Shown here piece by piece: positions 18,465 to 30,305 of a stretch of DNA of 64,000 bases. The stretch comes from Miltoncostaea marina (GTDB lineage Bacteria > Actinomycetota > Thermoleophilia > Miltoncostaeales > Miltoncostaeaceae). The stretch is from positions 434,001 through 498,000 of the forward strand of contig NZ_CP064655.1 of NCBI RefSeq assembly GCF_018141525.1, given 5' to 3'. A model generated the notes under the pieces. The model was not told where the DNA came from. It saw only the letters and a list, made by a program, of their open reading frames with translations, and did not search any database. The translations under genes and the position numbers were made by a program. How positions within the stretch are numbered: position 1 is the stretch's first letter; each line of letters begins with the position of its first letter.

Positions 18465-19232
18465 CTACCTGCGGATGGCGTCCGCGACCTGGTCGGCGAT
18501 CTCCTCCACGGTGTAGTCGGACGTGCGCAGCGCCACCTTGTCGGCCAGCGACGGGCTGGCAGCCAGCACTTCGGACTTGGAGATGTTGTGCCAGAGGGGC
18601 AGGACCAGCTGGCGCCCGCCATGCATCTCGCGAGCAACCAGCCCGTTCAGTTCGTAGTTCGTCCAGTTCTTCGCGAAGAAGGCCTCCGACAAGACGACGA
18701 TGCCGAACCGGCTGCTCGCGATGCCCCGGTCGATGCTCTGGCGGAGGCTGGAGCCGAGCTTGAGTTCGAAGTCGTCGTACCAGACGTCGAGGTTGCGGGC
18801 GCGCAGAGCATCAGCCAGGGGACGGACGAGGCTGGCCTTGTCTTCTGTGGCATGTGAGATGAAAACGTCGTAGGCGGCTTCGAACCCCTCGCCGTGCGCG
18901 TCGTCGATCGCGTCGGCGATGGAGCCGAGCGCACCGCTGCGCGTGGTCCGTATGGGCGCTGGCTGCGGAGGAAGCACTTGAACGCCCCAGCGTCCGCGCC
19001 ACGGACGTCCGCCGTTCTCAACAACCACGTACCAGCGACCCGAGCGCGGAATCTCGAAGTTGACCGGCGAGCGTGTCGCCCGGCCTCCCTGAGCGCGCCC
19101 GCCCCGGCCAGCCTTGAACGCCGAAAAGGTGCTGGTGTCCATCAACCAGACGTTCGCCGCCTGGCCCGAAAGCGACACCGACGCGATGGCACCCCGTGGC
19201 TGCTGTCCGAGGTCTCTGTAGAGGAACTCCAC
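18465..19232 (-). CDS. DUF1883-TIR domain protein (putative NADase effector)
   Basis: 255 residues. The N-terminal DUF1883 domain covers about 1-95 (VEFLYRDLGQQPRGAIASV, then LSGQAANVWLMDTSTFSAFK and IPRSGRWYVVVENGG). A C-terminal TIR domain starts near residue 125 with YDVFISHATEDKASLVRPLA, then DVWYDDFELKLGSSLRQSID and SRFGIVVLSEAFFAKNWTNY, with the catalytic-type glutamate E194 in TNYELNGL. TIR domains of this class cleave NAD+ in defence and signalling. The GTG at 19232 is chosen because DUF1883 normally begins with M-x-F-L-x-R-D-L; the frame extends 21 codons upstream. It is convergent with the DUF5677-like gene. Confidence 0.85.
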   Translation of the reverse strand: MEFLYRDLGQQPRGAIASVSLSGQAANVWLMDTSTFSAFKAGRGGRAQGGRATRSPVNFEIPRSGRWYVVVENGGRPWRGRWGVQVLPPQPAPIRTTRSGALGSIADAIDDAHGEGFEAAYDVFISHATEDKASLVRPLADALRARNLDVWYDDFELKLGSSLRQSIDRGIASSRFGIVVLSEAFFAKNWTNYELNGLVAREMHGGRQLVLPLWHNISKSEVLAASPSLADKVALRTSDYTVEEIADQVADAIRR

Positions 19233-19414
19233 GACCCAACTATGGGGCACGGGCCGGACGCCAAATGCGCCGCTTTCCTCGGGAAGGGCCGGCACCGGCT
19301 GGGGCGGGCGGCGCTCGGTAGGACGTCGACACTCTGTCTCGTCTCCGGCGCCGAACCGTCACGCACCGAATCCTCGCCGGCGATCTCGAGCCCAGTCCGA
19401 TTACCGTACGAGCT

Positions 19415-19942
19415 ATGGCGAATGGAAGTTCAGCAGAAGAGACGACGCTGGCCGCGCTCGGCGTGCTGGCGCAGCGCGCCGCCGAGGCGAAGAGGTGGGA
19501 ACGGGGGGCGCTGGAGGAGCGCGCGGCGGCCGTGGTGGCGGCTGTGCGGGCCGGAGCCCGTCTCGAGGAGATCGCAACGGCCGCCGGGATAACGAGGGCG
19601 GCGACGTCGGTGATCGCGCGCAAGACGCTGGCTCCACGATCCGGGCGCGGCGGCCCCTACCGACGCCGTCGAGGGGTCGCGGCCTCCATCAGTGAGGTCG
19701 AGCAGGCGGCAGCGCGTGCCACGGCGGCGACGCGGAGCCGGCAACTGGCCATCGGCGACCGGGACACGGCGGTGCTCGGTGCCGCTGAAGCGGGCATCGC
19801 CGTCCGCTCCATCGCGCAGGCCATCGGTATGGACTCCAAGGTCGTCCACACCCTCATCCGGCGCCGTCGCGGCGAGGCCACGCAAGAACCCAGTGGCACG
19901 CTTGCATCGCCTGTGGCGAGTGGTGGAGCGATGACATCATAG
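19415..19942 (+). CDS. Small basic protein with two helix-turn-helix-like segments
   Basis: 175 residues. Two helix-turn-helix-like stretches are visible: RLEEIATAAGITRAATSVIARKTL at about 50-73 and VRSIAQAIGMDSKVVHTLIRRRRG near the C-terminus. They are separated by an alanine/arginine-rich helix. No named family recognised. It is likely a DNA-binding protein of the element, placed just upstream of the ssb-parB operon promoter and perhaps regulating it. The ATG at 19415 has only a weak GAGC site. Confidence 0.6.
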   Translation: MANGSSAEETTLAALGVLAQRAAEAKRWERGALEERAAAVVAAVRAGARLEEIATAAGITRAATSVIARKTLAPRSGRGGPYRRRRGVAASISEVEQAAARATAATRSRQLAIGDRDTAVLGAAEAGIAVRSIAQAIGMDSKVVHTLIRRRRGEATQEPSGTLASPVASGGAMTS

Positions 19943-19943
19943 A

Positions 19944-19973
19944 TTGACGAAAAAGCGCGCGGTCGTGTAGGGT
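19944..19973 (+). promoter_or_regulatory. Promoter-like boxes upstream of the ssb-parB operon
   Basis: TTGACG at 19944-19949 and TAGGGT at 19968-19973 are separated by 18 bases, a good match to a housekeeping sigma-factor promoter. Downstream is a leader with an imperfect hairpin (about 19991-20017, GCCCGG...CCGGGC), a GGGAGA ribosome site, a short peptide and then ssb. Confidence 0.55.
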
Positions 19974-20043
19974 CGGACCACAATCAAGAGGCCCGGCGGC
20001 GCTGCGAACGCCCCGGGCCGTGGCAACCGAAGGGAGACTTCGG

Positions 20044-20133
20044 ATGCGTTTCGACCGTACCAACGGGCGATCGGCTGCGCTCGCGCGCGCCGCTGCGACC
20101 GGCCGGGGAAGTGGGGCCACCGATGCCCGCTGA
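20044..20133 (+). CDS. 29-residue leader peptide overlapping ssb
   Basis: A short frame from ATG 20044, with GGGAGA about six bases upstream, encodes MRFDRTNGRSAALARAAATG and nine more residues (RGSGATDAR). Its TGA at 20131 lies inside the ssb gene, eight bases after the ssb start. The overlap suggests translational coupling. It is preceded by a hairpin-forming leader, so an attenuation role is possible but unproven. Confidence 0.45.
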   Translation: MRFDRTNGRSAALARAAATGRGSGATDAR

Positions 20134-20533
20134 CCTCAACACCGTCGGCCTGGTCGGCCGACTGACCCGCGACCCGGAGCTGCGCTACACCGCGGCCGGT
20201 GAGGCGGTCTGCGGCCTGCGCCTGGCCGTCTCGACCCGGACACGCGCCGACGAGGGCTGGGAGGACCGGCCGAACTTCTTCGATGTCTCGGTGTGGGGCA
20301 AGGGCGGCGAGGCCGCCGCTGAGCACCTCACCAAGGGGCGGCGCATCGGCGTCGCCGGGCGACTCACCTGGCGCGAGTGGACGACCGATGACGGCTCGCG
20401 TCGCGAGGCTGTCCAGATCGTCGCAGCGTCGATCCAGTACCTCGACGCGCCGCGCAAGGACGACGCCGCGCCGGAGCCGGTGGGTGCGCCCAACGGGAAG
20501 GGGGCCGCCAGTGGCGACGACATCCCCTTCTGA
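20123..20533 (+). CDS. ssb: Single-stranded DNA-binding protein
   Basis: 136-residue SSB. The OB-fold shows LNTVGLVGRLTRDPELRYTA near the start, then FFDVSVWGKGGEAAAEHLTKG, RIGVAGRLTWREW and VQIVAASIQYLD. The C-terminal tail is short and ends in the protein-recruiting tip DDIPF. It protects single strands during plasmid replication or conjugation. The ATG at 20123 starts the fold and overlaps the end of the leader peptide. The end overlaps the winged-helix gene by 23 bases. Confidence 0.95.
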   Translation: MPADLNTVGLVGRLTRDPELRYTAAGEAVCGLRLAVSTRTRADEGWEDRPNFFDVSVWGKGGEAAAEHLTKGRRIGVAGRLTWREWTTDDGSRREAVQIVAASIQYLDAPRKDDAAPEPVGAPNGKGAASGDDIPF

Positions 20534-21119
20534 GCGACCGCCGCTCGCCCTCGCACCGGAGCCGGCCTCCGACGAGCCGCCCCCGATCGATGAGGCCCAG
20601 GCCGACCGCCTCTACGCCGACACGATGGCGGCAGCCCGACGCGCCGCCCGCGTCGCCGCCGAGCTGGAGCGCGCCGCCCGCGCCGGTCACCCGGCCTGGC
20701 AGGCGGCCGCGACATCGGCCCGTCGGGCCGAGGCGAGCCTTCGCACGGCCGCCCAGGTGGTCCCGGACGTTCCGCCGGACGCGCCCGCCGACCCACGCCG
20801 GGCGACCGTGCTCGGCGACCTCACCATCGACCGGGCCAGGCGCGCCGCCTTCTGGACCGACACGCCGCTCGCCCTCACCCGCTTGGAGTTCGACCTGCTG
20901 GTCGCCCTGGCGGAGCGCCCCGGCGAGGTTCTCACCAAGGACGATCTGCTGCGGCGCGTGTGGGGCTACGCCGGACGGGCCCGCACCCGCACCGTCGACT
21001 CCCACGCGTCGCGCCTGCGCCGCAGCCTGCACGCCGCCGGGGCGCCCGGCGCGACGGTCGTGAACGTGTGGGGCATCGGCTACCGCCTCACGGTCACCGA
21101 CGACCCCGAGGCGGCATGA
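20511..21119 (+). CDS. OmpR/PhoB-type winged-helix protein without receiver domain
   Basis: 202 residues. A long alanine/arginine-rich helical N-terminus occupies 1-95. The Trans_reg_C domain occupies about 100-198 (ALTRLEFDLLVALAERPGEV, DDLLRRVWGYAGRARTRTV, HASRLRRSLHAAG, VVNVWGIGYRLTV). No receiver domain or phospho-aspartate is present, so DNA binding is not controlled by a typical histidine kinase. The GTG at 20511 lies inside the ssb 3' end after GGGAAGGGGG; the stop overlaps the next ATG (ATGA). Probably a regulator of element genes. Confidence 0.85.
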   Translation: MATTSPSERPPLALAPEPASDEPPPIDEAQADRLYADTMAAARRAARVAAELERAARAGHPAWQAAATSARRAEASLRTAAQVVPDVPPDAPADPRRATVLGDLTIDRARRAAFWTDTPLALTRLEFDLLVALAERPGEVLTKDDLLRRVWGYAGRARTRTVDSHASRLRRSLHAAGAPGATVVNVWGIGYRLTVTDDPEAA

Positions 21120-21418
21120 ACGGCGTCGACCACCAGGCCGCCGGCCTTCGCGCCACCGTCCGCGCCGCCATCGCGGCGGGCGGCCTCGAGGACACGGTGC
21201 GGGCGGTCCTCGAGCGGCGCTTCCCGGCCGAGGGGCCGGGCGCAAGCCTCGACGAGGCCGGGGCCGCCCTCGGGATGAGCCCGGCGATGGTCGCCCACAT
21301 CGAGTTCGCCGCGCTCTGCGCGATCGCCGCCGGGCGCTCCGGCAGAAGCGCGGCCATCCCGACGAGCAGCCGTGATCCGCATCCCGGGCGCTCGCACACC
21401 GAAGGAGGGGGAGCATGA
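21116..21418 (+). CDS. Small sigma70-region-4-like HTH protein
   Basis: 100 residues. The middle (GASLDEAGAALGMSPAMVAHIEFAALCAIAAG) resembles a sigma-factor region 4/HTH with LDEAGAALGMS as the first helix and turn. The tail is short and basic. It overlaps its neighbours on both sides by four bases (ATGA at 21116 and at 21415), so it is part of the ssb-parB operon. It probably regulates replication or partition. Confidence 0.6.
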   Translation: MNGVDHQAAGLRATVRAAIAAGGLEDTVRAVLERRFPAEGPGASLDEAGAALGMSPAMVAHIEFAALCAIAAGRSGRSAAIPTSSRDPHPGRSHTEGGGA

Positions 21419-22971
21419 CCAGCGACACCGCGCCGACGACCCTCGCGGTGCTGCCCATCGACGCGATCAGCGTCCGCGAGGGCTGGAACCCGCGCAGCGG
21501 CGACGATGAGGTCGAGCACCAGGCGCTCACCGACTCGGTGCGCGCGCAGGGCATCCTGCAGCCGCTCTTGATCGAGCGCACCGACGAGGGCGCGGTCCTG
21601 CTCGACGGGCACCGACGGCTCGCGGCCGCGCGTGCGGCCGGGATCTCCGACGTCCCGGTGATCGAGCGCAGCGGGGAGGACGGCGAGGCGCCCCAGCTCG
21701 CCGCCGCCCTCGCGGCCAACATGCGCCGCCGCGGCCTCGACCCGATCGAGGAGGCGCGCGCCTACGAGCGCGCCGCGAAGGCCGGGTGGCCGCAGCGGCG
21801 GATCGCCGAGGCGGTCGGCTGCTCGCCGCGTCACGTCTCCCAGCGGCTGCGCCTGCTGCGGTTGCCCGACGGCGTTCAGAAGGCGATCGGCGCAGGGGCG
21901 CTGCCGCTCTCGGTCGTGCCCACCGTCGAGACGATCGCCGCCGCCGCGCCCGCCGTCGCCGACGCCCTGGCCGCCGCCCTCGCCACCGGCACGATCACGG
22001 CGGCCGAGGTCAGCGACCATCCCGAGAGCGCGCTCGCCGAGCTCGCGCAGACCGTGAACGACGAGGGGTGCCCGAGGCTCGTCGCGGTTCCCGGCTACCA
22101 GGATCTCGGGGCGCTCGCGCTTCCCGCCGACCTCGCCGCGCGCGCCGAGGCGGCCGGAGTCCACGGCGTCAGCTTCTCCGCCGACGACATGGACGCTGCG
22201 CGTGCCTTCGGTTGCCTGATCGAGTTCACGAGCGGTGAGGATCGCTACTGGCACCGGGGCTTCGTGGCCGACGCCGCCTGGGTGGCGGACCGGGTTGGCC
22301 TGCACATCGAACGGGCCGAGGAGCGGACGCGCGAGGAGGCAGAGCGCAGCGCGACGATGAGCGCCGCGGACGGCCAGGAAGGCCCGGGCGACGCGGACCG
22401 CCCGAGCGAGTCGGAGGAGGAGCGGCGCCGCCGGGAGCGCCAGGAGGCCAAGGAGAACCGGCGCGCCGCCCACCTTGCCAACCTTGACCTCGGACGGCGG
22501 GCGCTGCTCGCCTACGAGGAGCCCGCCGAGATCACGATGCAGATGGCGAAGGCCGTTGTCCTTGTCGCCCTCCATCACCAGGCGCAGGACGCCGCCCAGG
22601 CGCTTCGCCTCACCCACGAGCGTCTGCAACGCACCGAGACGGTGACCACCAAGGCCGGGGCGACGCGCGAGCGGGTCCGGTACCCCGAGCGCCACGAGGC
22701 GGAGGCGGCGCTCGTGGAATGGATCGAGGGTGCGCGAACGCCGGCCCAGCTGATCGGGCGCGCGGTGCAGGCCCTGGTCGGGGCCTTCTACGCCGACCAG
22801 GAGGCCCTGCCGCAGTCCGAGCGGCGCCCGGCCGCCATGCCCGGCCGCTACGGCGGTGGGATCGCGGCCGGGCTCCCAACGGTGATGGACGGCCTCGCGC
22901 GTGAGGTGCTCCCCGAGCGCCTCGCGGCAGGCCTGCGCGAGTCCCCGGACGTCGAGGCGCTCGCCGCGTAG
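21415..22971 (+). CDS. parB: ParB/RepB/Spo0J-family partition protein
   Basis: 518 residues. The N-terminal CTPase/ParB domain shows LPIDAISVREGWNPRSGDD, ALTDSVRAQGILQPLLIER, VLLDGHRRLAAARAAG and LAANMRRRGLDPIEEARAY. The HTH is RRIAEAVGCSPRHVSQRLRLLRLP. A long C-terminal extension follows, including an acidic/arginine coiled region (EEERRRRERQEAKENRR), longer than chromosomal ParB. The GxxRxxA box sits in GHRRLAA. No parA gene is next to it, so partition may use a host or distant ATPase, or the protein may act in replication control. Last gene of the operon; a hairpin follows. Confidence 0.9.
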   Translation: MTSDTAPTTLAVLPIDAISVREGWNPRSGDDEVEHQALTDSVRAQGILQPLLIERTDEGAVLLDGHRRLAAARAAGISDVPVIERSGEDGEAPQLAAALAANMRRRGLDPIEEARAYERAAKAGWPQRRIAEAVGCSPRHVSQRLRLLRLPDGVQKAIGAGALPLSVVPTVETIAAAAPAVADALAAALATGTITAAEVSDHPESALAELAQTVNDEGCPRLVAVPGYQDLGALALPADLAARAEAAGVHGVSFSADDMDAARAFGCLIEFTSGEDRYWHRGFVADAAWVADRVGLHIERAEERTREEAERSATMSAADGQEGPGDADRPSESEEERRRRERQEAKENRRAAHLANLDLGRRALLAYEEPAEITMQMAKAVVLVALHHQAQDAAQALRLTHERLQRTETVTTKAGATRERVRYPERHEAEAALVEWIEGARTPAQLIGRAVQALVGAFYADQEALPQSERRPAAMPGRYGGGIAAGLPTVMDGLAREVLPERLAAGLRESPDVEALAA

Positions 22972-23068
22972 GACCCGCGACACCGACCGGGACGGGCGCG
23001 GCGCGGCTCAGCGGTCGCGCGCGACAGGCACCCGTCCCGGTCTGCGATCCGTGCGCCCTCGCCGGAAC

Positions 23069-23098
23069 GCCGCCGGACCTCTTGAGGGGTCCGGCGGC
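23069..23098 (+). terminator. 11-bp hairpin downstream of parB
   Basis: Arms GCCGCCGGACC (23069-23079) and GGTCCGGCGGC (23088-23098) pair perfectly around an eight-base loop. It lies 98 bases after the parB stop and has no T-tract. Terminator of the ssb-parB operon, or an oriT-type inverted repeat. Confidence 0.6.
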
Positions 23099-23282
23099 TG
23101 GCCCTGTCCGCCGCAGGATGCGGATACCGGCGCTCTGAGAGGACGCCCCGATCGGCGATTCGCCGCAAGCCCCCCTGGGCCGGACGAGGCGAGGCCCAGC
23201 CACCGAGAGGACGACTGCCCGCGGAGCGTCCCGACAGAGCCAGCGACCCGACCGGCGATCAGGAGCCGGGCACCCTTGCATC

Positions 23283-23288
23283 TATAAT
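23283..23288 (+). promoter_or_regulatory. Perfect TATAAT -10 box just before the relaxase start
   Basis: TATAAT stands out in a GC-rich setting. Transcription would begin near 23295, only about five bases before the GTG at 23300, which has no ribosome site. This points to a leaderless or near-leaderless mRNA. No good -35 box is present at the usual spacing. Confidence 0.5.
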
Positions 23289-23299
23289 GCGATCCGACG

Positions 23300-25909
23300 G
23301 TGTTGACGATACGAGCTGCCAAGGGAGCCGACTACTACGAGCGCGCCGAGTTCGCGCGCGACGACTACTACGCCGAGCGCGGGCAGGTGCGCGGGACGTG
23401 GGAGGGACGCGGCGCCGAAGCGCTCGGCCTCACCGACGCACCGGGGGACGGCGCGCTGGGCGCGCTCCTCGAGGGACGCGATCCCGCGAGCGGCGAGGAC
23501 CTGCCCGGGCGGCGCAACCGCCGCGGAGGCAACGTCGCCTTCGATCTGACGTTCGCCGCCCCCAAGGGGCTGAGCGTGCTCGCCGCGGTCGGCGACGAGG
23601 CCGTGCGGGCGGCCATCCTCTCCGCGTACGCCGAGGGGGTGCGCGCGGCGCTCGACTACCTCGAGCGGCGAGCCTGCTTCGTGCGGCGCGGCCACAACGG
23701 CGTGAGGGTCCTTCGCGCTGAGGGTTTCGTGGGCGCCATGTACCTGCACGAGATGGCCCGCTCCGGCGATCCGCACCTGCACGCGCACCTGGTGCTCGCC
23801 AACCGGGTGCGCGGCGAGGACGGCCGCTGGACCGCCCCGGACATGAGGCCGGTGTTCGCCGAGGCCAAGACCGCAGGCTTCATCGCCGAGGCGGTGGCCC
23901 GCGCGCGCCTCAGCGAGACGCTCGGCCTTGAGTGGGAGCAGACCGCCAACGGCTCGATTGACCTCGTGGCGATGCCCGCGTCGGTGCGCGAGCACTTCTC
24001 GTCCCGCCACGCGGAGATCGTCGAGCTGGCACACGCGCGCGGCTACACCGGGGCGTCGGCGATCGAGGCGATCCAACGTGAGACCCGCGACCGCAAGCGC
24101 GTCGTCTCCCGTGAACGGGCGGCGGCCGAGTGGCGCGCGCGGGCGGCCGAGCACGGGTTCGGTGCCCGCGAGGTGGCGCGGGCGACCGGCGCGGCGCGGT
24201 CGCGCTCGCGGACGGCGTACGTCGAGGGTCTGCGCGAATGCCGGCGCCGGATGGAGAGCCCCGCCGGGCTCACCCAACGGGCGTCATCGTTCACCCGCCG
24301 CGAGGTGATCCAGGATCTCGCCGACGCCCACCCAGAGGGCATCGGCGCGCACGCCCTCGAGCGCCTCGCCGACGACTTCCTCGCGGCACGCTGTGTGCCC
24401 CTCGCGCCGGCGGGTGCGGCGCCTGGGCGCGGTTACGAGGAGGCGCGCTACACGACCCCCGACATGCTCGACGTCGAGACCCGGCTGATCGACACGGCGT
24501 GCGCGGCGCCGATCGACCCACGGCTGGCGAGTCCCCTTCAGGTCGAGCGTGCGATCGGCGCCAGGCGCTCGCTCGGCGATGACCAGGCGGCAGCCGTCCG
24601 CCATCTGTGCTCCGGCGAGGCGCGCACGCGGCTGATGGAGGCGCGTGCGGGCTCGGGAAAGACGTTCGCCCTGGAGGCGGTGCGGGAGGCCTATGAGTCG
24701 TCGGGCGTCGCGGTGGTGGGAACCGCCTGGCAGGCCCAGGCGGCCGAGGTGCTGCAGCGCGACGCCGGCATCGCCTCCGAGACGACGGCGCTCATCCTGG
24801 AGCGCGCAGCGCGCGGCCAGGACGCGATTCCCGGGGGCGCGGTCGTCGTCTGTGACGAGGCCTCCACCATGCCGACGCGCGCCCTCGAGCGACTCGTCCA
24901 GGTGGTCGCTTCGCGCGGTGGCCGACTGATCCTCGTTGGCGACAGGGCGCAGCTGCCACCGGTCGACGCCGGCGGCGGCTTCGCCGCCCTCTGCGACCGG
25001 CTCGGCTCGGTCGAGCTCACCGAGAACCGTCGCCAGCGCACCGAGCTGCAAAGAGCCGTGGCCGAGCGGCTCGCCGAGGGGCGCGCCGGCGATGCGATCT
25101 CGCTCCTCGCGGAAAACGGCCGCCTGCGGACGTTCGAGGACGGCGCCGACGCCCGGCGCGCCCTGATCCGCTCCTGGGCGCAGACATCGCTTGCGGATCC
25201 CGCTGACGCCGTGATCCTCGCCCACGACCGACGCGAGGTGCGTCTGCTGAACGAGATGGCCCGGGCCGAGCTCGACCGCGCCGGACGGCTGTCGGACCGC
25301 CGCCTCGTGGCGGAGGGGCGGGAGTGGGCGATCGGCGATCGCCTGCTCTGCCGGCGCAACGACTACCGGCTCGACGTGCGCAACGGCACCCGCGGCGTCG
25401 TCGTCGGACTCGACGAGAACGAGCGGGCGCTCACGCTCTGGACCGACGATGGGCGCGAGGTCGTCCTTCCCGCCGTCTACCTGCGTCACGCCGAGCGTGG
25501 ATACGCGATGACCGGACACGTCAGCCAGGGCACGACCGTGGACCGCACCTACCTGCTCGCGACGCCCGAGAGGGGCGGCACGGAATGGGCGTACGTCGCG
25601 GGCTCACGCCAGCGGATCGATCTCGAGGTCTACGCGATCCACCCAGACCCCGAGACCCTCGCTGTCGCCCTTGAGCGCGCGTGGTCGCGGACGCAGGCGA
25701 AGGGACTCGCAATCGACATCGTCGCAGCGGGCGATCGCGGTATCGAGGAAACGGAGTCGGCCAGAGGACTCACCCACGGTCCGTCCGCGGGGTCGAAGCC
25801 GGATGTCAGTGCAGGACGAGCGTTGTCCGATCCGGATCTACGGTTGGCCGAGTCGCCCCGGCCGCACCCGCCGCCCGTGCCTGAGCGTGGGCTTGGTCGG
25901 GATCTCTAA
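23300..25909 (+). CDS. MobF (TrwC-type) conjugative relaxase-helicase
   Basis: 869 residues. The N-terminal TrwC relaxase domain starts LTIRAAKGADYYERAEF, with the catalytic tyrosine candidates Y12/Y13 and Y23/Y24. It has the three-histidine metal site in GDPHLHAHLVLANRV near residues 155-169. A RecD/TraA-like helicase follows, with Walker A ARAGSGKTFALEAV near 450, Walker B VVVCDEASTMPTRAL near 513, a GDRAQLPPV motif, and motif VI-like GHVSQGTTVDRTYLLA near 740. It nicks oriT and unwinds the transferred strand. The GTG at 23300 and TTG at 23303 are both possible starts. No coupling protein or secretion genes are present, so the element is probably mobilised with help. Confidence 0.92.
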   Translation: MLTIRAAKGADYYERAEFARDDYYAERGQVRGTWEGRGAEALGLTDAPGDGALGALLEGRDPASGEDLPGRRNRRGGNVAFDLTFAAPKGLSVLAAVGDEAVRAAILSAYAEGVRAALDYLERRACFVRRGHNGVRVLRAEGFVGAMYLHEMARSGDPHLHAHLVLANRVRGEDGRWTAPDMRPVFAEAKTAGFIAEAVARARLSETLGLEWEQTANGSIDLVAMPASVREHFSSRHAEIVELAHARGYTGASAIEAIQRETRDRKRVVSRERAAAEWRARAAEHGFGAREVARATGAARSRSRTAYVEGLRECRRRMESPAGLTQRASSFTRREVIQDLADAHPEGIGAHALERLADDFLAARCVPLAPAGAAPGRGYEEARYTTPDMLDVETRLIDTACAAPIDPRLASPLQVERAIGARRSLGDDQAAAVRHLCSGEARTRLMEARAGSGKTFALEAVREAYESSGVAVVGTAWQAQAAEVLQRDAGIASETTALILERAARGQDAIPGGAVVVCDEASTMPTRALERLVQVVASRGGRLILVGDRAQLPPVDAGGGFAALCDRLGSVELTENRRQRTELQRAVAERLAEGRAGDAISLLAENGRLRTFEDGADARRALIRSWAQTSLADPADAVILAHDRREVRLLNEMARAELDRAGRLSDRRLVAEGREWAIGDRLLCRRNDYRLDVRNGTRGVVVGLDENERALTLWTDDGREVVLPAVYLRHAERGYAMTGHVSQGTTVDRTYLLATPERGGTEWAYVAGSRQRIDLEVYAIHPDPETLAVALERAWSRTQAKGLAIDIVAAGDRGIEETESARGLTHGPSAGSKPDVSAGRALSDPDLRLAESPRPHPPPVPERGLGRDL

Positions 25910-26032
25910 GCACTCGCCCGAGCGAAGAGGCCGGTCCGATCACGAGCTGTGCCCCAGCACGTTTCGCGCATCACGACAGTGTCGCGAGCTGTCTGGTGGA
26001 GGACCCGGACCTCAGTCTGCGAGGATCATCCC

Positions 26033-26713
26033 ATGGAGCAGTCGGAGCTCGGTTCGGCAGTCGCTCGCCTGGCTGCGTTCCTCGCCCACGGCCCGCTGAC
26101 CGCCACCATCGCCGAGTTGGAGCATCAACTGGTCGGACTGGACGCCGCCGGCGTCACCGCCGCATCGAATGCCAAGGGTGTCGACGGCGACCTGCTTCGA
26201 TCGGCGCTCATCGCGAGGAGCGAGCTCGGACGGGTGAGCGACCTCATTCACGCTGCGGCGATCGTCGTCTTGCTGCCTCGCCTGCTCGGCGAGGACGAGG
26301 TCGTCACGAACCGACCCTCCCTCGCCGCGGGCAACGACCCCACTCGCCCCTTCGATCTCGAGACCAATTTGAGGGTGGCTGAGTTCAAGCTCTCGCAGTG
26401 GGCGGGGGCGGACGCGATGAGAAAGCGGCAAGTGTTCAAGGACTTGGTGCACTTGGCTGCGGACAGATCCGGGCGACGTCCAGAGCTCTTCGTCGTCGGA
26501 CAGGCGCCAATCGACTTCCTCCGACGGTCCAGATCCAATGCCGCGTGGGCGCTTGACCGCTTCCCCGCGACGCGCCAGTTCTTCGTCGAGCACTTCGGTC
26601 CGCTGGAGGTTCGGATCGCCGACTTCACCGCCGGCCCGGCGGCGCATGTGAAGATCATGGACCTCAACGCCTCGATTCCCGAGATCGGGACGGGGACCAG
26701 CAAGACTGATTGA
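26033..26713 (+). CDS. Putative PD-(D/E)XK-like nuclease, unknown family
   Basis: 226 residues; I do not recognise a named family. The N-terminal half is helical (LAAFLAHGPLTATIAELEHQ). The core FDLETNLRVAEFKLSQW gives D108, E117 and K119, the D...ExK spacing of PD-(D/E)XK nucleases, followed by a strand LFVVGQAPIDFLRR that could be the next core strand. The ATG at 26033 starts the helix and lies 124 bases after the relaxase. The PIN gene follows 75 bases later, and both are probably cargo of the element. The nuclease call rests only on this motif and predicted order. Confidence 0.5.
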   Translation: MEQSELGSAVARLAAFLAHGPLTATIAELEHQLVGLDAAGVTAASNAKGVDGDLLRSALIARSELGRVSDLIHAAAIVVLLPRLLGEDEVVTNRPSLAAGNDPTRPFDLETNLRVAEFKLSQWAGADAMRKRQVFKDLVHLAADRSGRRPELFVVGQAPIDFLRRSRSNAAWALDRFPATRQFFVEHFGPLEVRIADFTAGPAAHVKIMDLNASIPEIGTGTSKTD

Positions 26714-26788
26714 CGGCGACGACCCGAAGCCGTCGGCGGGCGGGGCTGCGATCGATCCGTCGTATTCTGGAGTCATCATGGGTGCCGG

Positions 26789-28081
26789 ATGACGGCACCA
26801 CCTTGGAATCGAGCGCCCGGCGCCGCCGGGGAACTCGAGCGGCTCGCGGGTGACCTGGACCGCGCGCTGCGGCACGTCCTCTCAAGGGCGACGATCGAGG
26901 ACCGCTACACGAACAGCCCCGGCGACCCGGTGGTGTTCATATCGCCGGACCCCTGGGTGTGGGTCTTCGGTCCCGACGCGCTACCGGCTCGGCGGACCGC
27001 GCGACGCCTCCTCGATCGGTGGCTCGAGCTCGGTCAGCGCGTCCTTCGAGCCGCGGCGCCCGAGACCGAAGAGGAGTTCTGCGAGCGTGCCGGGGCGCTG
27101 CGATCGCCCCTCGATCTTTCGGAAGCGGCGGAAGGCCCCGGAGCGCGGGAGCTGGACAAGGCTGCGGGCTACGTCCTTGGGGCGCTCGCCGAGCAGCGCG
27201 CTCTCGTGCGACGCGTCCTCGGCTCAGAGCTGGAGCCCGGATCGTCCGAGCTCTGGCTGATCCCCGACACCAACGCGCTCTACCGGAATCCTTCGCTGGA
27301 GAAGTGGGCGAACGACCAGCCCGCGACGCTCGTTCTGATCCCCCAGGTCGTACGGGAGCTGGCCGCTCACAAGCAGCACCATCCGGTCGAGGAGGTGCGC
27401 CGGAAAGCCCAAGGGCTGCTTCGTCGCTTCGGCGAGTTCGAGCGACGAGGAGACACGTCGGCCGGCGTGCCGGTCGCCGGGCGGCTCCGATTCATGGAGA
27501 TCGCCGTCGACGCGAACGTCCGCGAGTCGCTGTCATGGCTTCGCCCGGAACACGCCGACGACCAGATCTTGGCGAGCGTGCTCGAGCTGCAGTGGGCGTA
27601 CCCCGCGAAGTCCATCACCCTCGTCACCGAGGATCGCGGGCTCCGCACCAAGGCACGGCAGGCGGCGGTGACCACCAGCCCTGCGCCACCGCCCCCAACG
27701 GTGGCGGTGAAGTCGCGCGGGAGTCGGAGACGTCGGGGCGCCGTGATCCGGGTGAAGTCGGCCAAGCTGGTCGCCCAGGACCGGCCCGCAGCCCCGTTCT
27801 TCGAGCGGAACGCCCCGACGAGCGTCCTCGTCGTGGAGGTGGTGAACGGCGGCGACGAGACCGCCTTCGACGTCCGAGGGGCTCTTCTTCGACGACACGC
27901 CGGAGGTGCGTGGACCTATTTCGGGAGCCTGGACATCCCCGTTCTCGAGGCCAACGGCACGCTCGAGCTTCGCTTCCCCGAAAGCGGACCGCAGCGGCCA
28001 ACAGTTGTCCGTCCACGGGACGTTGTGATCGAGGAAGGCATGTGGACCGACCGCGACGGGGTCGAGCACGTCATCGATTAG
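26789..28081 (+). CDS. PIN-domain ribonuclease-like protein
   Basis: 430 residues. A helical N-terminus (1-150) precedes a PIN domain with the four expected acidic residues: D160 in LIPDTNALYRNP, E190 in VVRELAAHK, D257/D258 in HADDQILASV, and D282 in TEDRGLRTKA. The C-terminal part (310-430) is a separate beta-rich module (SVLVVEVVNGGDETAFDVRG). PIN domains cut RNA in toxins, decay factors and defence proteins. The domain looks more like PINc/PhoH-associated PIN than small VapC toxins, and there is no small antitoxin next to it. ATG 26789. Confidence 0.75.
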   Translation: MTAPPWNRAPGAAGELERLAGDLDRALRHVLSRATIEDRYTNSPGDPVVFISPDPWVWVFGPDALPARRTARRLLDRWLELGQRVLRAAAPETEEEFCERAGALRSPLDLSEAAEGPGARELDKAAGYVLGALAEQRALVRRVLGSELEPGSSELWLIPDTNALYRNPSLEKWANDQPATLVLIPQVVRELAAHKQHHPVEEVRRKAQGLLRRFGEFERRGDTSAGVPVAGRLRFMEIAVDANVRESLSWLRPEHADDQILASVLELQWAYPAKSITLVTEDRGLRTKARQAAVTTSPAPPPPTVAVKSRGSRRRRGAVIRVKSAKLVAQDRPAAPFFERNAPTSVLVVEVVNGGDETAFDVRGALLRRHAGGAWTYFGSLDIPVLEANGTLELRFPESGPQRPTVVRPRDVVIEEGMWTDRDGVEHVID

Positions 28082-28425
28082 TTCGATGCCGGTCCGTTGT
28101 CCCAGGGCGACCCGGGTCGGGCGGCTACGACAGACCGCGCGCGATCGCGACGGAGAAGTCCGCCTTCGCGGAGTCCGAGTAGGGGCAGCACAGCCGCGAG
28201 CTGCTGCGGCGCTGGTTACGCGACCTCGCGAAGTACGACATCCTGGCCGCGTGAGGCCAACGAGGCTCGGGAGGGTCCGTGAGGGGCAGTCGCGAAGACG
28301 CGACCCGGCTCACCCGGGGGGCCGCGGACGGCTCGATGCCTGTCCGTCGCGGACCTCGACGACCCGATCGAAGTGCTCCGCGTCAGCCTCGAAGTGGAGC
28401 CTCAGCCGAGGGTGAAGGCCCGAAG
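28082..28425. other. Gene-poor gap with a coding remnant
   Basis: No intact gene. At about 28129-28254 there is coding-like text RAIATEKSAFAESE, an in-frame TAG at 28180, then SRELLRRWLRDLAKYDILAA and a TGA at 28252. This looks like the decayed end of an unknown gene. The element's right border may lie here, but no tRNA or att repeat was seen. Confidence 0.4.
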
Positions 28426-28704
28426 TCATCGGCCCACCGCACTCCGGACGATGACCAAGGCGTCCTCGACGCGCCTGCGCCGATCAGCGGGCGAGCCGTC
28501 GTCGTCGAAGGCGCGACGCACCTCGTCGAGCACGAGCCGCATTCTGAGCTCGTCGAGCAGCCGCTGTGCCATGGCGATCGCGTCGACTATTTCCAGATGA
28601 CCGCGGCTCTCCTCCAGCAGACGTCGCGGCCGCAGGGTGGCCCGTTCGACCGAACCGAGCAGAGGCGCCGAGGCGCGGCTGGGCGGTGTGCGCACGGTGC
28701 CCAT
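28426..28704 (-). CDS. Small helical hypothetical protein
   Basis: 92 residues, no family recognised. The body is helical and charged: RRLLEESRGHLEIVDAIAMA followed by QRLLDELRMRLVLDEVRRAF, ending in a basic helix. The ATG at 28704 is 11 bases after the stop of the membrane protein gene, with weak GGGG ribosome-site character, so it is probably the second gene of a pair. Codon positions look coding, but this is a modest call. Confidence 0.45.
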   Translation of the reverse strand: MGTVRTPPSRASAPLLGSVERATLRPRRLLEESRGHLEIVDAIAMAQRLLDELRMRLVLDEVRRAFDDDGSPADRRRRVEDALVIVRSAVGR

Positions 28705-28714
28705 CCGGGCCCCG

Positions 28715-29179
28715 CTAGTGGTGCTCCGCGTGGTCCCCGGCCGGGACGTCCGAGGGCCGCCCGGCCGGCGTCGCAGCGGGGCTTGCCGGCTGCTCGATCG
28801 GTGTGCCAGCGGTGTCGCCACCGCGGATCGCCGGACCGATCACCTGGCTGGACACCAGAAACGCGGCGGCGAAGATGACCAGCGCGATGGCCGGCGCCCT
28901 CCACGAGTCGAAGCGCTTCTTCAGCCGCAGCAGGAAGGGTACCGAGAGCAGCAGCCCGAGTCCGCCGAACAGCGCGGTGCCCGCCGTACCGGCCAGTAGC
29001 GCTGCGCCGGCCAGCGGGCCGACGTGGTGCAGTACATGGGGAGCAATTCCGGAGACGGCACCGACCAGACCGGTGACCCAGGCCGCGAGGCGACGGCGAA
29101 GCCCGCGGATGACCCGCAGGCGTCGAAGGTCTTCCGGCGAGACCGCTGCGGGGGGAATCGGGTGCGAAAGCATGTCCAT
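28715..29179 (-). CDS. Small integral membrane protein with His-rich tail
   Basis: 154 residues. The basic cytoplasmic start (VSPEDLRRLRVIRGLRRR) is followed by three membrane helices: AAWVTGLVGAVSGIAPHVLH, GAALLAGTAGTALFGGLGLLL and APAIALVIFAAAFLVSSQVIG. A proline-rich C-terminus ends in AGDHAEHH, a possible metal-binding tail. Function unknown; the histidines in the loop (PHVLHHVG) and tail suggest metal handling. ATG 29179. Confidence 0.65.
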   Translation of the reverse strand: MDMLSHPIPPAAVSPEDLRRLRVIRGLRRRLAAWVTGLVGAVSGIAPHVLHHVGPLAGAALLAGTAGTALFGGLGLLLSVPFLLRLKKRFDSWRAPAIALVIFAAAFLVSSQVIGPAIRGGDTAGTPIEQPASPAATPAGRPSDVPAGDHAEHH

Positions 29180-29445: not shown

Positions 29446-29682
29446 ATGAGGACTGATGCCCTGGCGGCCCTCGAGGTCGTCGGGCTCGAGAAGGTCTACG
29501 ACGACGGGACGATCGCGCTGCGGGGGATCGACCTGCGCGTCCCGGCCGGGGCCTTCTACGGCCTGCTGGGCCCGAACGGCTCCGGCAAGAGCACGCTCAT
29601 CGGGATGACCACCGGCCTCGTGCGCGCGCCGGCGAGGCGGATCGTCGTCTTCGGTCACGACGCCGTCGCCGAGGCGCAACCG
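29446..29682 (+). pseudogene. Truncated ABC transporter ATPase (5' fragment)
   Basis: Starts like a complete daunorubicin/NatA-type ATPase: LEVVGLEKVYDDGTIALRGIDL, Walker A LLGPNGSGKSTLIGMTTGLV, and RIVVFGHDAVAEAQ. The similarity stops at about residue 79, before the Q-loop, signature and Walker B. The sequence then runs into the tail of the minus-strand TetR gene. A deletion or rearrangement at about 29680 is the simplest explanation. Confidence 0.8.
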
Positions 29683-29708
29683 CCCACGTGTTCGCTGCGC
29701 GATCCGGC

Positions 29709-30305
29709 TCAAGAAGTCGACGTTCGCCCGCGGCGTGTTCCCGCTCGGCGGCGCACTGCTTCCAGCGTCAGACGAAGCAGGCGCTTGACGGCCGCCGCCG
29801 TCGGTAACTCCGCGGCGCCGGCCATCGCGTGGACGCAGAAGGCGGCCAGCTCCCGGGCGGGAACATCGTCACGCAGTAGGCCGCCGCGGACGCCGTCGTC
29901 GACGGCGCCGGTCACGAGCTCCAGCAGGTGGGCCCTCGCCCGCGCAACGTGCTCGTCGGCGTGCAGCACCGGCACCCGGCCCGGAGGGTTCTCGCGCACG
30001 ATCCGCCCATAGGTGGCCAGGAGCGCCTCGAGCGCCTCCCCTCCTGAGCCGTGGCGTGCGCGGACTGCCTCGAGCTCGTCCAGGTGCGCCCCCACCTGCC
30101 GCCGGTGCCAGGCGGTCAGCACCGCCTCCAGGCTCGGGAAGTACTTGTAGAGCGTCGCGCGCGCGATGCCGGCGGCCTCCGCGATCTGGGACATCGTGAC
30201 CGACAGCGGCCCCTGTTCGGCGACGAGGCGGCCGGTGGCATCGAGCACCGCCTCGACGACCTCCAGCCGGTGGGCTGCGATGGAGTCGGACCACAGGCGC
30301 GGCAT
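29709..30305 (-). CDS. TetR-family transcriptional regulator
   Basis: 198 residues. The N-terminal HTH shows RLEVVEAVLDATGRLVAEQG, MSQIAEAAGIARATLYKYF and LEAVLTAWHRR. The C-terminal ligand/dimer domain is helical (LLATYGRIVRENPPGRVPVL, ELVTGAVDDGVRGGLLRDDV). The ATG at 30305 starts the fold; the frame is open further upstream without coding character. It is divergent from a small membrane-protein pair. A 13-bp palindrome in the shared promoter region is the likely operator. Confidence 0.9.
   Translation of the reverse strand: MPRLWSDSIAAHRLEVVEAVLDATGRLVAEQGPLSVTMSQIAEAAGIARATLYKYFPSLEAVLTAWHRRQVGAHLDELEAVRARHGSGGEALEALLATYGRIVRENPPGRVPVLHADEHVARARAHLLELVTGAVDDGVRGGLLRDDVPARELAAFCVHAMAGAAELPTAAAVKRLLRLTLEAVRRRAGTRRGRTSTS

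Follow-up and report, generated by a model that had tools for sequence, protein, structure and literature searches.

ORF1, a gene in the 64,000-nucleotide window of Miltoncostaea marina DNA analysed here (the whole stretch, to which all positions given without a contig name refer), would encode an undescribed defence nuclease of the PD-(D/E)XK type, carried as swappable cargo of a mobilizable element, a reading that we place at a probability of about 0.6. The parts of this reading differ in strength. It is very likely that the modelled ORF1 protein has the PD-(D/E)XK nuclease fold, a role in defence is likely, and the odds are even that its target is invader DNA.

Organization of the locus

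ORF1 (P0001) occupies positions 26033 to 26713 of the plus strand and encodes a protein of 226 aa, probably a PD-(D/E)XK nuclease, whose family has no name as yet. It is followed on the same strand, after a gap of 75 bp, by ORF2 (P0002; positions 26789 to 28081), which encodes a PIN_4 protein of 430 aa. Both reading frames lie where the original prediction had placed them, and their third-position GC content (0.81 in ORF1 and 0.82 in ORF2, compared with 0.49 and 0.51 at the second position) follows a coding pattern. The start codon of ORF1 is the ATG at 26033, preceded by a GAGGA stretch resembling a Shine-Dalgarno sequence. The codons for the predicted metal-binding and catalytic residues D108 (26354–26356), E117 (26381–26383) and K119 (26387–26389) span positions 26354 to 26389 of the plus strand, and these residues are present as originally described.

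Directly 5′ of ORF1 lies the gene for a MobF/TrwC relaxase-helicase (23300–25909, plus strand; Pfam TrwC, 7.8e-70), preceded on the same strand by genes for a ParB-like partition protein (21415–22971) and a single-strand binding protein (SSB; 20111–20533). A gene for a DUF1883-TIR protein (18465–19295, minus strand) is found at the other flank of this backbone from ORF1. A scan of positions 25800 to 28800 returned no promoter and a single terminator-like site, which falls within ORF2 and is at chance level. No tRNA genes were found within the window, nor any convincing direct repeats that could represent the ends of the element. Near its right edge, the frame at 29446–30012 has, by eye, an ABC transporter ATPase-like start (GPNGSGKST), beyond which the similarity is lost, and this gives it the look of a truncated gene.

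Family and modelled fold of ORF1

No usable family match was obtained for ORF1 in Pfam, PADLOC, NCBIfam or PHROG; no protein listed among the PADLOC-DB 2.0.0 defence profiles matched it, and no match was found among PDB sequences. When ORF1 was used as a single-sequence query against genome contigs, no match was returned, unlike the result of an alignment query: a first alignment was built from plasmid matches and then used as the query, which yielded 53 relatives in bacterial genomes. In total, more than 60 relatives were found, in Actinomycetota and Alphaproteobacteria, some of them on conjugative or mobilizable plasmids and two in IMG/VR viral contigs, with none in phage records. The family is sporadic, being present in 3 of the 396 genomes of the phylum, and no description of it was found in the literature searched, whose coverage was incomplete.

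The conserved D...(D/E)xK catalytic motif of the PD-(D/E)XK superfamily is present in ORF1, with D108 kept in 65 of 65 aligned sequences and E117 and K119 each in 64 of 65; R105, F107, D108, E110, R114, R130 and D137 are invariant over the same 65. The genome scan relied on a peptide pattern (R[DPE]FD[LV]E[TN][ND]xR) that spans D108 and E110, and E117 and K119 lie outside it; their conservation is therefore unbiased by the search, and the motif is not a chance occurrence. The exception is a relative on a Mycolicibacterium plasmid (L009:7983-8666), in which both E117 and K119 are lost (VVIANV) and which is possibly inactive, judging from its sequence. This relative is what favours the view that ORF1 might be a PD-(D/E)XK fold that is decaying or lacks catalysis and plays a structural part. 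However, the triad is kept in all other relatives, the window copy of ORF1 is intact, and dN/dS between close pairs of relatives is 0.06–0.24, a range that points to purifying selection, so that such a structural role is highly improbable.

An AlphaFold2 model of ORF1 built from 34 sequences reached a pLDDT of 92.7 and a pTM of 0.89, and in this model the motif is carried by two adjacent strands (residues 109–111 and 114–119), as in the PD-(D/E)XK core fold. Foldseek searches with the model against the PDB and viral models returned nothing significant. In a structural realignment, the best row was HindIII (Z 5.5 over 158 residues, rmsd 4.7), followed by Kpn2I, Can2, SfsA, EcoT38I, NgoMIV, YaeQ, LmuA, Cfr10I, Bse634I, SgrAI and Cap4, enzymes that adopt the PD-(D/E)XK fold. 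PD-(D/E)XK enzymes made up almost the whole of the top 30, and one row was clearly unrelated (MITD1). Every Z was low, 5.5 at best, and a Z below 8 could by itself reflect a common arrangement of structural elements; it is the consistency of the list, combined with the motif, that argues for the fold. On these grounds, the original assignment of ORF1 as a PD-(D/E)XK nuclease is supported by both the motif conservation and the modelled fold.

Among known enzymes, the restriction endonucleases HindIII, Kpn2I, EcoT38I, NgoMIV and Cfr10I (Z 5.5–4.3) resemble ORF1 in placing D...ExK on adjacent strands, but they differ from it in the low Z values, an identity of 6–14% and the lack, as a rule, of an adjacent methyltransferase in the ORF1 family. 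A type II restriction-modification system was considered and rejected, given that a cognate methyltransferase is absent beside ORF1 and inconsistently present beside its relatives. Among the structural rows are also LmuA of Lamassu, Cap4 of CBASS and Can2 of type III CRISPR; in contrast to Cap4- or Can2-type effectors, ORF1 has no SAVED or CARF sensor. An assignment as the LmuA of a Lamassu system was likewise set aside, as no SMC gene occurs among the scanned window neighbours and SMC genes adjoin few relatives only.

Genomic neighbourhoods of ORF1 relatives

Genes of DISARM, Lamassu, Gabija, AbiE, AbiH and AbiV occur around the relatives of ORF1. Two neighbour sets, of 116 and 108 predicted proteins, were scanned against PADLOC; their genes were called by a simple codon-composition rule, and the tallies are raw counts, so that they serve as descriptive support. 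Strong matches beside relatives included DrmA (1e-259), DrmD (E = 0), DpdE (3e-253) and LmuB (3e-145), as well as AbiEii (9e-95), AbiEi (1e-69), GajB (1e-68) and AbiH, whereas weak matches to generic ATPases and helicases were unspecific, a DrmD search being positive in 14 of 14 control genomes. SMC-like genes of the LmuB type, judged by sequence, adjoin three ORF1 relatives; in two loci (L024 and L026), an exonuclease-like gene precedes the SMC gene, and the ORF1 relative comes after a small third gene. In Haloechinothrix halophila, two ORF1 relatives (L019 and L020) are separated by about 12–13 kb, and a genome of the same class (G587:C11) has two divergent relatives (L086 and L087) at a distance of about 12 kb.

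In Alphaproteobacteria (L004, L005, L006 and L041–L063), the ORF1 relative often overlaps the upstream gene by about 4 bp. These upstream genes belong to two families, both of which contain, by eye, a stretch resembling PD-(D/E)XK; for one of them, PDDEXK_5 was matched weakly (E 0.012). In addition, 3′ of the ORF1 relative there is often an AbiH, AbiV or other HEPN gene; among the alphaproteobacterial neighbour proteins, HEPN_AbiV was matched in nine and AbiH in four. Such operons are a candidate multi-gene system. None of the partner genes is conserved in both phyla, so that no core system emerges. Taken together with the TIR-SAVED gene found at the position of ORF1 in a sister element (see below), these defence-gene neighbourhoods make the defence link originally raised for ORF1 likely.

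In many actinobacterial relatives (L003, L019–L022, L024, L026, L028, L030, L031, L033, L034, L037 and L038), the protein is fused at its N-terminus to a conserved region of about 80 aa (HWVEVxGxRxPPKQ...FTSHxALxQLRRLGF), for which nothing significant was found in Pfam or among PDB sequences. In Streptomyces, in some Mycolicibacterium and in the window, ORF1 or its relative is apparently unfused. No methyltransferase gene lies beside ORF1 in the window, and none is consistently adjacent to its relatives. The fused region and the inconstant methyltransferase would both fit a type IV-like, modification-dependent restriction enzyme whose fused actinobacterial N-terminal domain reads DNA, which would be a more specific form of the defence-nuclease reading. 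However, since the region lacks a significant match and the ORF1 of the window does not have it, this specific form is unlikely.

A mobile backbone with probably exchangeable cargo

The SSB, ParB and MobF genes form a conserved backbone (19457–25908, plus strand) that is common to four sister copies, so that five copies are known in the genus, the window included, with differing flanking genes. Three close relaxase copies were located in G477 (at 639, 220 and 3178 kb) and one in this genome (at 2885 kb), and the backbone copies correspond to G000:C1:2885385-2892544 (L124), G477:C1:628000-657000 (L122 and L123), L125 and L126. The flanking genes of the copies encode TIR-SAVED, TIR and a DISARM-like helicase, as well as, by eye, ThiF and a cytosine methylase with HNH. 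The originally suggested carriage of ORF1 and ORF2 on a mobile element is thus borne out by the backbone and its sister copies. No published description of this actinobacterial backbone was found in the literature searched, the coverage of which was incomplete.

The backbone DNA of the window is 83% identical to that of its closest sister, in G477, and the homology stops at the relaxase stop codon. Immediately past this stop codon, at the same position as ORF1 and on the opposite strand, G477 has a SAVED-TIR gene (SAVED, 642069–642581; TIR, 642906–643193; G477 positions). Therefore, ORF1 occupies a slot that is used for a CBASS-like effector in one sister. Farther out from the relaxase, G477 carries a second TIR gene and a DISARM-like helicase gene, and the second backbone copy of the M. 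marina genome has a SAVED gene at its other flank. Apart from the DUF1883-TIR gene of the window, this genome has no TIR_2 match, and all SAVED and TIR_2 matches in these two genomes fall within about 7 kb of a backbone copy. A recombinase-like gene adjoins the second element copy and has no counterpart in the window. With its MobF/ParB/SSB backbone and defence-like genes that differ from copy to copy, the element resembles mobilizable carriers of exchangeable defence cargo, its own boundaries, recombinase and transfer being putative.

The position of ORF1 directly 3′ of the relaxase gene and the occurrence of relatives on conjugative or mobilizable plasmids could also indicate that ORF1 serves the element itself, in transfer, maintenance or exclusion of rival plasmids, rather than antiviral defence. 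However, ORF1 is missing from the four sister backbones, and most of the neighbours inspected or counted around its relatives are genes of other kinds than transfer, so that a role of this kind seems improbable.

ORF2 as a separate cargo

Residues 158–296 of ORF2 (27260–27676, plus strand) match Pfam PIN_4 at 5.5e-12, with 46.6 bits against a curated cut-off of 21.9, and the acidic set expected of a PIN_4 member (D160, E190, D257/D258 and D282) is contained in the motifs PDTNAL at 159, QVVREL at 186, HADDQIL at 255 and TEDRGL at 280. Beyond this domain, ORF2 has an extra N-terminal part, for which only a chance-level match was obtained, and a C-terminal module (27701–28078, plus strand) that has no match in the plasmid collection. 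The protein therefore agrees with its original description as a PIN protein with a full acidic set and an additional C-terminal module, and from its sequence it is probably an RNase. No PADLOC-DB 2.0.0 family matched it; in PHROG, it matched 2765 PhoH-like at 5e-6. It resembles PIN_4/PhoH2-type proteins in the PIN_4 match and the acidic set, but differs from them in the lack of a PhoH ATPase and in its unusual N- and C-terminal parts. A VapC-type toxin was considered and rejected, as ORF2 is 430 aa long and is preceded by the gene for the 226-aa nuclease-like ORF1 instead of a small antitoxin. A single-sequence structure model of ORF2 had a pLDDT of 35, too poor for use.

Searches of 249 genomes from the class and 396 from the phylum revealed no full-length relative of ORF2, and none of its relatives occurred in viral contigs. 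The closest, in G081, shares 34–37% identity over the PIN region only. In that genome (L100:4498-7252), the ORF2-like PIN gene comes after an ArdC-like gene, recognized by eye, and before an SSB gene, a context that resembles a plasmid leading region.

It had been proposed that ORF1 and ORF2 act together as a two-nuclease defence or anti-plasmid system, a view with which their common strand, their 75-bp spacing and the joint absence of both genes from the backbone of the sister elements (four of four copies) would agree. However, conserved co-occurrence of the two genes, the test named in the original prediction itself, was not found: ORFs in the flanks of about 64 ORF1 relatives include no ORF2 homologue, and this genome is the only one of 396 in the phylum to have both genes, so that their adjacency is seen only here. 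Additionally, the 249 genomes of the class lack a full-length ORF2 relative, and the nearest ORF2-like gene, in L100, adjoins an SSB gene and not an ORF1-like gene. A two-gene system is thus very unlikely, and the best reading is that ORF2 was acquired independently of ORF1, as a separate cargo.

Proposed mode of action of ORF1

For ORF1 as a defence nuclease, we infer the catalysis, DNA substrate, trigger and defence phenotype as follows. ORF1 would be an antiviral or anti-mobile-element defence gene that rides as exchangeable cargo just 3′ of the relaxase gene on the SSB-ParB-MobF element. Its product would comprise an N-terminal helical region (residues 3–84) and a C-terminal nuclease core (about 86–210), in which D108, E117 and K119 would bind Mg2+ and, once the protein is triggered, cleave incoming phage or plasmid DNA; alternatively, it might cleave host DNA, as in abortive infection. 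Because a methyltransferase is not consistently adjacent, control would probably be exerted through target recognition or activation and not through protective methylation. More tentatively, and at somewhat less than even odds, ORF1 may represent an undescribed, self-sufficient PD-(D/E)XK defence family, present in at least two phyla, that travels on small cargo-exchanging MobF elements and is modular, in the sense that it occurs alone, with an N-terminal fusion, or as part of overlapping operons that also contain AbiH/AbiV genes and a second gene of PD-(D/E)XK-like type.

Implications

Both the PD-(D/E)XK nuclease fold and the setting in a defence island are already well known; relative to the libraries and the incomplete literature searched, what appears to be new is the ORF1 family and the transfer backbone. 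If the proposed reading is true, a nuclease family of more than 60 members, which none of Pfam, PADLOC, NCBIfam and PHROGs currently detects, would join the bacterial defence catalogue, and the five backbone copies within one genus, each with different cargo, would offer a ready comparison for the study of defence-gene swapping.
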